From contig NC_061068.1 of the NCBI RefSeq assembly GCF_021917145.1, positions 4,386,932 through 4,450,931 of the forward strand: a stretch of 64,000 nucleotides of DNA, written 5' to 3'. The DNA comes from Hypomesus transpacificus. Its lineage: Eukaryota > Chordata > Actinopteri > Osmeriformes > Osmeridae. The notes below the pieces were generated by a model. It worked only from the letters and a program-made list of their open reading frames with translations, was not told where the DNA came from and did not search any database. The translations under genes were made by a program, and so were the position numbers. Within the stretch, counting starts at the first letter, position 1. The number at the start of each line of letters is the position of its first letter. Below, in pieces: positions 43,925-49,581 of the stretch.

Positions 43925-44460
43925 GTCCGTGTACCTTGTGGCCATTGGTTTTTCTATTTTGCAACCCGTGTTGACAAACGCAATATAGGGCCGTAATATC
44001 GTTTTGTCATTTTAGTAACTCAAACACACATTTAAGTATTACGGCTTGTTTTTGGTTGTTTCGTTTTTTTTTAAATAATGAAATAACCATATAACACAAA
44101 TGGTATAACGAGCCATTAATCGTTGTTTTGATTATTCCATATCCTTTATGCTAATATCTGCAACAACAAAAAAATAGCCTCGTAATATCGATTTGTTCAT
44201 TTTGGATGTCAGAACCAGATTATGGGGAAAGGCTTGGTTTCCGTTGTTTTGTTTCATTTTGGAATTACGGAATATCCATATAACACAAACGGTATAACGA
44301 GCCATTTAGCCTACTCGTTTGTTTTATCGGCCGTATTGTGCATACTGGCACAAGTGAAAAAGAGAGGGAGAGATGCTAAACGATTGGGAGTGTTTTTACT
44401 TCCGAACACCAGAGGGCAGCAACGACCTGTGATCTGTAGGCCTACACTCTTGACGACATA
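43925..44460 (+). repeat. Left outer arm of the foldback element
   Basis: Contains two related subunits. 'cgtaatatcgttttgtcatttt' near 43993 and 'cgtaatatcgatttgttcatttt' near 44182 are each followed by 'atataacaca.a.ggtataacgagccatt', at about 44090 and 44278. The arm is therefore itself a diverged tandem duplication of about 185 bp. It ends at the TA used by Tc1 copy 2. Confidence 0.8.
44406..44420 (+). promoter_or_regulatory. CTCF-like motif in left arm
   Basis: 'caccagagggcagca' fits the CTCF core consensus. Its inverted twin is at 49084-49098 in the right arm, so the pair is convergent. Motif only; binding is not shown. Confidence 0.45.
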
Positions 44461-46121
44461 CAGTGCCCTCCAAAAGTATTGGAACAGTGAGGCCAATTCC
44501 TTTATTTTTGCTGTAGACTGAAAACATTTGGGCTTGACATCAAACGATGAATGTGAAACCAGAGATCAACGTTTCAGCTTTTATTTCCAGGTATTTACAT
44601 CAGGATCTGATGCACAAATTAGAAAATATCACCTTTTTGTTCGAACCCACCCATTTGTCACGTGAGCAAAAGTATTGGAACATGTGACTGACAGGTGTGT
44701 TTTGTTGCCCAGGTGTGTCCTATTACATACATTATTCAATCAATAAATACCACTGAATGTCTACACTCAGGTTCAGATTGGGTAAGATAGGTTTTGTCTA
44801 TGCAGACTGTATTCAGAGGTGAAAACAACATGAAAACCAGAGCGCTGTCTTTGGGTGAAAAACAAGCAATTGTGAGTCTTAGAGAAGATGGAAAATCAAT
44901 CAGAGCCATTGCAGAAACATTGGCCATAGCCAGTACAACCATTTGGAATGTCCTGAAGAAGAAGAAAACTACTGGTGTACTTAGTAACAGACGTCGAACA
45001 GGTAGACCAAGGAAAACATCAGCAGTTGATGACAGAAACATTGTAAGAGCTGTAAAGAAAGACCCTAAAACAACTGTTAGTGAGATCAGCAACAACCTCC
45101 AGATGGCAGGAGTGAAGGTATCACTATCTACTGTTCGCAGAAGACTTCATGAACAAAAGTACAAGGGCTACACCAGAAGATGCAAACCACTCATTAGCAA
45201 GAAGAATAGGAAGGCCAGGCTGGAATTTGCCAAAAAGTACAGAGATGAACCTCAAAAATTCTGGGACAAAGTTTTATGGACTGATGAGACAAAGATTAAC
45301 TTTTACCAAAGTGATGGAAAGGCTAAAGTTTGGAGAAAGAAAGGAACTGCTCATGATCCCAAACACACAAGCTCATCTGTGAAACACGGTGGAGGTAATG
45401 TCATGGCTTGGGCTTGCATGGCTTCTTCTGGGACGGGCTCATTAATCTTCATTGAGGATGTAACACATGATGGCAGCAGCAAAATGAACTCGGAAGTCTA
45501 CAGAAACATTTTGTCTGCCAATTTAAGGAAAGATGCAACCAAACTGATTGGCAGAGCCTTCATCATGCAGCAAGATAACGACCCAAAACACACTGCCAAA
45601 ACAACAAAGGAGTTCATCAGGGGCAAGAAATGGAAGGTATTAGACTGGCCAAGTCAATCTCCAGACTTAAACCCTATAGAGCATGCATTTTACCTGCTTA
45701 AGAGGAGACTGAAGGGAGGAACCCCACAAAACAAACAACAACTGAAAGAGGCTGCAGTGAAAGCCTGGGAAAGCATCAAAAAGGAAGAATGCAAAAGTTT
45801 GGTGACGTCAATGGGTCACAGACTTGCTGCAGTTATTGAAAGCAAAGGATTTGCAACTAAATATTAAGTCTTATTCACTTAAATATGTTTTAAGTATATC
45901 TGTTCCAATACTTTTGATCACATGACAAATGGGTGGATTCAAACAAAATGTGATATTTTCTTAGTTGTGCATCAGATCCTGATGTAAATACCTGGAAATA
46001 AAAGCTGAAACGTTGATCTCTGATCTCACGTTCATTATTTGATGTCAAGCTCAAATGTTTTCAGTCTACAGCAAAAATAAAGGAATTCGCCTCACTGTTC
46101 CAATACTTTTGGAGGGCACTG
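44461..46121 (+). mobile_element. Tc1-like transposon, copy 2 (full length)
   Basis: A 1,661-bp element with TA on both sides (44459-44460 and 46122-46123), nearly identical to copy 1 throughout. Inserted in the left arm of the foldback element: removing it joins 'cttgacgacata' to 'gcagcaggttctttagtag', which matches the uninterrupted right-arm sequence near 49008-49040. Confidence 0.97.
44794..45867 (+). CDS. Tc1 transposase, copy 2 (apparently intact)
   Basis: A 357-codon frame without interruption. DD34E triad at Asp164, Asp261 and Glu296, GRPRK motif at 70-74, and the expected Val203 and Gly213 in the [17 protein letters not shown] segment. Of the copies here it is the best candidate for a functional transposase. 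The encoded enzyme would bind the direct repeats in the terminal arms and perform TA-targeted cut-and-paste. Activity is inferred from intactness only. Confidence 0.96.
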   Translation: MSMQTVFRGENNMKTRALSLGEKQAIVSLREDGKSIRAIAETLAIASTTIWNVLKKKKTTGVLSNRRRTGRPRKTSAVDDRNIVRAVKKDPKTTVSEISNNLQMAGVKVSLSTVRRRLHEQKYKGYTRRCKPLISKKNRKARLEFAKKYRDEPQKFWDKVLWTDETKINFYQSDGKAKVWRKKGTAHDPKHTSSSVKHGGGNVMAWACMASSGTGSLIFIEDVTHDGSSKMNSEVYRNILSANLRKDATKLIGRAFIMQQDNDPKHTAKTTKEFIRGKKWKVLDWPSQSPDLNPIEHAFYLLKRRLKGGTPQNKQQLKEAAVKAWESIKKEECKSLVTSMGHRLAAVIESKGFATKY

Positions 46122-46123
46122 TA

Positions 46124-46345
46124 GCAGCAGGTTCTTTAGTAGAAGACCCACACCAAACTGGAAGCACATGTTGACCGAGTTTGCTACTTGCTACTTAGTT
46201 AATAAATCTTTGATGAACCCAAGTTTCTTTAATATATATTAGAAACATTACAAGACGGGGCTCCAGTGTGTGTTCAAACAAGGCCAAAAGGGCCCGATGG
46301 TATCAGTTGAAAAAGACAATCACACCTGTGCAAGAAACCCTCCCC
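46124..46345 (+). repeat. Left inner arm of the foldback element
   Basis: The segment from 'gcagcaggttctttagtag' onward is the reverse complement of about 48000-48220. The first 110 bp or so (to about 46232) are identical between the two, and beyond that small differences appear ('tttaatatata' against 'tttaaaatata'). Confidence 0.8.
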
Positions 46346-47999: not shown

Positions 48000-48220
48000 G
48001 AGTGTTTCTTGCAAGGGTATGATTATCTTTTTCAACCGATGCCGTCTGACACTTTTGGCCTTGTTTGAACACACACTGGAGCCCTGTCTTGTAATGTTTC
48101 TAATATATTTTAAAGAAACTTGGGTTCATCAAAGATTTATTAACTAAGTAGCAAGTAGCAAACTCGGTCAACATGTGCTTCCAGTTTGGTGTGGGTCTTC
48201 TACTAAAGAACCTGCTGCTA
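48000..48220 (-). repeat. Right inner arm, recent copy
   Basis: Reverse complement of the left inner arm, identical over about 110 bp next to the Tc1 end. A second, diverged version of the same stretch follows at about 48953-49030, so this arm holds the segment twice. Confidence 0.8.
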
Positions 48221-48946
48221 CAGTGCCCTCCAAAAGTATTGGAACAGTGAGGCGAATTCCTTTATTTTTGCTGTAGACTGAAAACATTTGAGCTTGACAT
48301 CAAATAATGAACGTGAGATCAGAGATCAACGTTTCAGCTTTTATTTCCAGGTATTTACATCAGGATCTGATGCACAACTAAGAAAATATCACATTTTGTT
48401 TGAATCCACCCATTTGTCATGTGATCAAAAGTATTGGAACAGATATACTTAAAACATATTTAAGTGAATAAGACTTAATATTTAGTTGCAAATCCTTTGC
48501 TTTCAATAACTGCAGCAAGTCTGTGACCCATTGACGTCACCAAACTTTTGCATTCTTCCTTTTTGATGCTTTCCCAGGCTTTCACTGCAGCCTCTTTCAG
48601 TTGTTGTTTGTTTTGTGGGGTTCCTCCCTTCAGTCTCCTCTTAAGCAGGTAAAATGCATGCTCTATAGGGTTTAAGTCTGGAGATTGACTTGGCCAGTCT
48701 AATACCTTCCATTTCTTGCCCCTGATGAACTCCTTTGTTGTTTTGGCAGTGTGTTTTGGGTCGTTATCTTGCTGCATGATGAAGGCTCTGCCAATCAGTT
48801 TGGTTGCATCTTTCCTTAAATTGGCAGACAAAATGTTTCTGTAGACTTCCGAGTTCATTTTGCTGCTGCCATCATGTGTTACATCCTCAATGAAGATTAA
48901 TGAGCCCGTCCCAGAAGAAGCCATGCAAGCCCAAGCCATGACATTA
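48221..48946 (-). pseudogene. Truncated Tc1 copy 3 (3' half of transposase)
   Basis: 726 bp corresponding to the right half of copy 2: the terminal repeat and the last 150 or so codons of the transposase (coding 48475 up to about 48946 on minus). It keeps Asp261 and Glu296 but lacks the DNA-binding domain and Asp164. It breaks off inside the GGGN-VMAWAC segment and joins arm sequence. It carries the copy 2 diagnostic bases and not those of copy 1 ('gatcacatgac', 'ctctgatctcacg', 'gctcaaatg'), so it derives from copy 2 or its direct ancestor. Confidence 0.93.
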
Positions 48947-48952
48947 AGTAAA

Positions 48953-49581
48953 TTAAGTAGCAACTAGAAAACTCGGTCAACATGTGCCTCCAGTTTGGTG
49001 TGTGTCTTTTACTAAAGAACCTGCTGGTAATTCTTCAAGATTGTAGGCCTACAGATCACAGGACATTTTTTTTAGCTAGTCGTTGCTGCCCTCTGGTGTT
49101 CGATAGTAATAACACCCCCAATCATTACACGTCTCTCCCCCTCTCTCTCTCTTTCACTTGTGCCAGTGTGCATAATACGGCCGGTCAAACAAATGAGTAA
49201 ATGGCTCGTTATACCGTTTGTGTTATATGGATATTCCGTAATTCCAAAATTAAACAAAACAACGGAAACCAAGCCTTTACCCATAATCTGGTTCTGACAT
49301 CCAAAATGGACAAAACGATATTACGAGGCTATTATTCATGTTTTGCAGATATTAGCATAAAGGATATGGAATAATCAAAACAACGATTAATGGCTCGTTA
49401 TACCATTTGTGTTATATTGTTATTTCATTATTCCCAAAAAAACAAAACAACCAAAAACATGCCGTAATACTTAAATGTGTGTTTGAGTTACTAAAATGAC
49501 AAAACGATATTACGGCCCTATTTTGCGTTTGTCAACACGGGTTGCAAAATAGAAAAACCAATGGCCACAAGATACACGGAC
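48953..49581 (-). repeat. Right outer arm of the foldback element
   Basis: Contains the Tc1-free version of the arm: inner-arm sequence ('aactcggtcaacatgtgcc' to 'aaagaacctgctg') passes directly into 'ttcttcaagattgtaggcc' and the outer arm. This is the pre-insertion state of the Tc1 copy 2 site. Confidence 0.8.
49084..49098 (-). promoter_or_regulatory. CTCF-like motif in right arm
   Basis: 'tgctgccctctggtg', the inverted twin of 44406-44420. Confidence 0.45.

Follow-up and report, generated by a model that had tools for sequence, protein, structure and literature searches.

The 64,000-nucleotide stretch of the smelt Hypomesus transpacificus analysed here (G000:C9:4386932-4450931, hereafter the window; the assembly searched comprises 437 Mb) carries a foldback element at positions 43924-49582. 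We consider it probable, at roughly 70%, that this element is a non-autonomous foldback transposon, namely one derived by internal deletion from a two-gene transposon of the kind found on contig C12, mobilised by an integrase-type transposase acting in trans and altered later by repair. The element has defined termini and a 6-bp target duplication, its family includes an insertion with empty sites and has recently spread to many copies, and a gene-bearing relative has the same arms and termini. Seemingly, the element stems from an undescribed lineage related to IS3EU but with GG..CC ends.

Ends, target duplications and copies of the family

Comparison of the termini across 20 fetched loci identified GG..CC as the first and last bases of the element, and the family ends were read as GGTCCGTG..CACGGACC. 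As the termini are GG..CC, the span of 43925..49581 given in an earlier note on this DNA was replaced by 43924-49582, with the ends GGTCCGTGTAC..GTACACGGACC. That note had also described a perfect 8-bp target duplication. The sequence CCAACAAG does flank the window element on either side, but only its central 6 bp, CAACAA, are duplicated target sequence. On each side, either the outer C or the outer G belongs to the element, and the remaining one agrees by chance. The parts of the window copy are listed below.

43918..43923, no strand: target duplication, left copy CAACAA (6 bp; sequence and cross-copy comparison)
43924..44458, plus strand: outer left arm with terminus GGTCCGTGTACC and two subrepeats of ~189 bp (self-comparison and standard copy)
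46124..46343, plus strand: inner part of the left arm (self-comparison and standard copy)
46344..47998, plus strand: loop without a visible transposase frame, also present in the standard copies of 3209 bp
47999..48218, minus strand: inner right arm, of which 48110-48218 is of left-arm type and is assigned to the putative copied tract (see below)
48951..49582, minus strand: outer right arm, of which 48951-49029 repeats 48142-48220 (91%)
49583..49588, no strand: target duplication, right copy CAACAA (6 bp; sequence and cross-copy comparison)

The outer arms (43924-44308 and 49198-49582) are 385 nt long and 95% complementary, and both contain direct repeats with a start-to-start spacing of 189 bp, in agreement with the two near-identical inverted arms and the internal duplication (subunits of about 185 bp) noticed earlier. 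The element thus combines the long inverted arms and internal subrepeats of a foldback structure.

An exact 6-bp duplication was found in 17 of the 21 paired copies: 13 of the 18 pairs of the first comparison, together with L014, L029 (for which the outermost terminal unit was taken), L030 and C12. Six loci with a single end recovered (L019, L020, L023, L027, L028 and L033) stand outside these 21 pairs. One of the 17, the duplication GGCCTA of L017b, is open to doubt, as TAGGCCTA occurs here frequently (0.33 per kb). No constant TA was present inside or beside the 17 duplications. At the ends of L014, L016, L025, L026 and L029, extra terminal units GGTCCGTGTAC(CTTGTG) of 11 or 17 bp occur in tandem, and the 6-bp duplication of L014 and L029 is found beyond these units. 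For the L010 insertion, two paralogous empty sites, L018 (97% over 294 bp) and L019, each contain a single AGCTAG, and comparison with them shows that the extra G is element sequence.

These data bear directly on the reading of the element as a hAT-type foldback with an 8-bp duplication. That CCAACAAG borders the window copy left and right, and that L011 also matches at 8/8, speaks for it, whereas most other copies reach just 7/8, since each side includes one element base. Moreover, the L010 empty sites assign the G to the element, and the terminus GGTCCGTG departs from the hAT motif CAGNG, a departure that had already been remarked on. We therefore regard a hAT origin as extremely improbable.

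Searching the genome with the 25-bp terminus (at most 2 mismatches) gave 121 matches (56 + 65), 100 places of which were listed, compared with 0 for the reversed control, and the arm query gave at least 49 matches on many contigs (40 of 189 candidates scored). The standard copy measures 3209 bp (L011 4693-7901) and has inverted repeats of ~780 bp that are 88% identical over a gapped alignment. By inspection without a Pfam scan, no transposase frame was seen in three standard copies (L010-L012), whose longest stop-to-stop frames span 129-137 codons. Among ten copies measuring 3.1-3.3 kb, pairwise divergence is 0.31-3.96%; nine of them lie 0.56-0.87% from the majority sequence and L026 lies 3.2% from it. 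The copies compared are therefore of recent origin. Termini, arm matches, standard copies and duplications together uphold the earlier proposal of a non-autonomous, multi-copy family of foldback type, and the search for other copies that had been suggested found many. A local inverted duplication in place of a transposon, named beforehand together with a lack of copies as grounds for rejection, can be dismissed, as it explains the inverted symmetry only and neither the arm matches on many contigs, the target duplications nor the empty sites.

The family also includes a rearranged locus with multiplied arms, L017, in which one copy is nested in the arm of another, and a 4.0-kb pair of termini at C21:8670880-8674852. 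An arm insert at L024:1682-2017 contains a fragment that looks RecQ-helicase-like by eye. A second foldback family was seen at L036:3772-7107, with terminus GGTCCGTGTACGTGAG and arms of ~770 bp (93-95%); its first 11 bases are those of the main family and its arms are different. The loop of this second family contains fragments resembling long interspersed nuclear elements (by eye), its flanks, TTGCTG and CTGCAC, show no clear duplication, and its right end also occurs in L027 at 5460. Elsewhere in the window, a long AGGAGGTGCAGG minisatellite occupies 6772-7649.

A gene-bearing relative and its transposase

Three long terminus pairs were fetched, L029, L030 and C12:4234688-4246908. The last of these spans 12.2 kb, has the family termini and is flanked by the duplication GTGATG. 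Compared with the standard copy, its arm pieces are 78-94% alike and parts of its loop about 75-88%. The minus strand carries two genes, one encoding a transposase and the other a RING-like protein; each was recovered as six exon matches, those of the second gene being to RING-like proteins of fish. When joined, the exons of the transposase gene hit PF24764 at 1.6e-17, indicating an integrase-core transposase, so that the autonomous relative with the same terminus that the earlier note had asked for was found, at least in type. In a protein search the joined transposase gave 302 matches, the best being from Osmerus mordax (93%), followed by many teleosts and also by Lingula and Montipora; of the 120 matches listed, almost every named one comes from a fish, apart from a brachiopod and a coral. 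With the RING-like query, 4 proteins were matched, and Engraulis was matched by both queries (RING-like, P0123; transposase, P0025). A widespread fish protein family, so far just 'uncharacterized', is hereby linked to defined termini, to a target duplication and to an accessory gene, which makes its activity testable.

Across an alignment of 33 proteins, D125 and D183 never vary and the conservation of E222 is at least 90%; these three residues probably form the catalytic triad. The AlphaFold model of the transposase (pLDDT 80.5) has its strands and helices in RNase H order. A Foldseek search of the PDB gave 4 matches at E <= 0.001, all of them TnsB, followed by Mu and retroviral integrases from 0.003 upwards; the TM-scores by query length were 0.3 or less, and the comparison therefore supports the fold class alone.

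Other candidates for the source of the transposase were rejected. No transposase frame was recognised by eye in L029 or L030. The large frame in L023 appeared hAT-like by eye (no Pfam scan) and is nested, because positions 1657-1664 of the standard copy (8 bp) are present in both of its flanks. The inserts in L027 and L025 appeared reverse-transcriptase-like by eye, and the gene in L033 is canonical PF24764, at 22% to P0001.

As judged from these features, we infer that a C12-type transposase mobilises the short copies in trans. The integrase-type DDE transposase would bind repeated sites in the long arms, which are predicted to serve as binding platforms, cut at GG..CC and join the element into staggered target nicks, which would give rise to the 6-bp duplications.

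The most serious alternative is that the short copies were moved by another transposase, for example the canonical PF24764/IS3EU proteins, and that the C12 gene is a passenger. Such proteins would be at hand, as the genome contains at least 151 PF24764 matches counted exon by exon (150 of 273 candidates scored), and at L033 one arm copy adjoins a canonical PF24764 gene; IS3EU elements likewise make 6-bp duplications, according to passages of PMC10045372. In contrast, the canonical pair examined starts with TATGG whereas the smelt foldback family starts with GG, and the C12 element has the family arms, the termini and a 6-bp duplication around its gene. We therefore consider this alternative unlikely, though it is the strongest of those weighed.

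Several observations weigh against descent from a C12-like transposon, or against particular parts of that reading. Only one gene-bearing copy was found among the three long pairs fetched; it is slightly decayed, with one stop in exon 2 of the transposase gene, and the assignment of the enzyme depends on it. Its gene could be a passenger in a 9.6-kb extra stretch; inspection of the two junctions of this stretch revealed no clear ends, no systematic test having been made. One transposase exon taken alone matches at 6.7e-05 (23.1 bits against the Pfam cut-off of 26), and the Pfam RING matches of the RING-like gene fall below the curated cut-off. The stretch 608-1013 of the standard copy has no match in C12, which is therefore a relative and not the parent. 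Four of the 21 pairs (L016, L021, L025a and L026) have no 6-bp duplication, L025a being counted as a miss although its right end is common to L025b and the pairing may be wrong. For the window copy, the joined flanks matched their own two halves plus 7 weak partials, and no empty site was found. In addition, the copies compared were the loci most similar to the window arm, a choice that biases the sample towards young copies, and the inverted Tc1 fragment described below could be an assembly artefact.

Tc1 sequences and proposed repair in the window copy

Most of the extra length of the window copy over the 3209-bp standard consists of Tc1 sequences, which are not part of the foldback element:

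44459..46123, plus strand: complete Tc1 in the left arm, with TA duplications (44459-44460 and 46122-46123) and identical ends TACAGTGCCCTCC
44830..45867, plus strand: open Tc1 transposase frame from an in-frame ATG (listed open reading frame 44794-45867)
48219..48946, minus strand: 3' part of Tc1 in inverted orientation, truncated, matching 45396-46123 at 728/728 bases
48947..48950, no strand: short filler at the junction of the Tc1 piece and the right arm (ATTAAGTA AATTAAGTA)

The frame matches HTH_Tnp_Tc3_2 (3.5e-25) and DDE_3 (3.6e-13) in Pfam. The earlier statement 'no recognisable transposase' is thus wrong, although this gene is foreign to the foldback element. A second complete Tc1 in the window (37536-39200, open transposase frame 37871-38944) differs from the nested one at 14 of 1665 positions, and at 8 of the 728 bases that the inverted piece shares with the latter.

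The inner inverted repeat of 948 bp contains 13 mismatches, every one of them at 46233-46339, so that 45396-46232 (837 bp) is without mismatch to its inverted counterpart in the right arm. Sequence of right-arm type resumes at 48951, across the short ATTAAGTA/AATTAAGTA junction, and repeats 48142-48220 at 91%. This pattern is what would be left by interrupted templated repair, in which a broken right arm invades the left arm at one end, is extended by copying and is rejoined through microhomology. As reconstructed from the sequence, Tc1 would have inserted at a TA in the left arm after the foldback element had landed. The right arm would subsequently have broken and been repaired by copying the left arm, with which it can pair as an inverted arm; synthesis would have covered 837 bp, through the inner arm and then into Tc1, and rejoining of the copied end at short homology would have produced the inverted Tc1 fragment and an arm duplication of ~80 bp.

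The inverted piece might instead go back to a second Tc1 that inserted independently and was then shortened by deletion, without any copying. The similarity of two other Tc1 copies to the nested one is 99.2% and 99.5%, and a near-perfect match is therefore weak evidence by itself. However, the piece meets a mirror-image TA site, the identity extends 109 bp beyond Tc1 into left-type arm sequence and then ends, and it is complete over 728/728 bases, at 8 of which another Tc1 copy differs. An independent insertion is thus quite improbable. If repair by copying is correct, the window copy documents sequence exchange between inverted arms, a route by which foldback arms can grow.

Comparison with known systems

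The 6-bp target duplication of the smelt family is shared with Polinton/Maverick elements, which carry a gene for a protein-primed DNA polymerase. The Tc1/mariner superfamily accounts for the nested element, merely a guest in the left arm. Galileo, a foldback element of the P superfamily in Drosophila with a target duplication of 7 bp, resembles the smelt family in its long, internally repetitive arms but has a different transposase; the smelt family would accordingly represent a vertebrate foldback case with an apparently integrase-type rather than P-type transposase. Passages of PMC3573991 describe Galileo arms as extending by taking in internal sequence, which is ascribed to recombination or repair off the other arm, and arm growth as explained by these authors resembles the repair proposed for the window copy. 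The fish superfamily Dada makes 6-7-bp duplications (in parts of PMC3706591 and PMC8869645), and Dada-U6 and Dada-U1 are described as lacking terminal inverted repeats (in part of PMC3706591). Dada targets small RNA genes, and an assignment to it was rejected, as the smelt family has inverted arms of ~780 bp and Dada none. A limited literature search, covering sources in part, found no published report of the element, and the zebrafish gene name gave 0 matches.

The closest likeness is to IS3EU/GingerRoot. IS3EU combines 6-bp duplications with a DDE integrase-core transposase without HHCC, and the complete families reported always have TA..TA termini, as far as passages of PMC10045372 go; for fungal IS3EU the termini TAYGG..CCRTA are given in part of PMC12730594. 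The smelt family likewise has a 6-bp duplication, and the C12 transposase matches PF24764, but its ends are GG..CC and not TA..TA (or TG..CA). Two canonical PF24764 elements, L034 and L035, are 98.9% alike over 6.5 kb, have the common left boundary TATGGCAAGCC (TATGG at the left end) and contain an inner array that is self-complementary. This left end fits both TAYGG and TA..TA as described in those passages (PMC12730594, PMC10045372), and because of it the canonical PF24764 proteins are probably IS3EU transposases. In a tree without outgroup, 13 P0001-type and 17 canonical PF24764 proteins were split at 100/100 with long branches. On this evidence the smelt family looks related to IS3EU at a distance, with different ends. 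More tentatively, and with the odds somewhat against it, the P0001-type transposases may form a separate integrase-type group of superfamily level, characterised by GG..CC ends, 6-bp duplications, arms of foldback length and a RING-like accessory protein, of which the smelt foldback families would be non-autonomous offspring.

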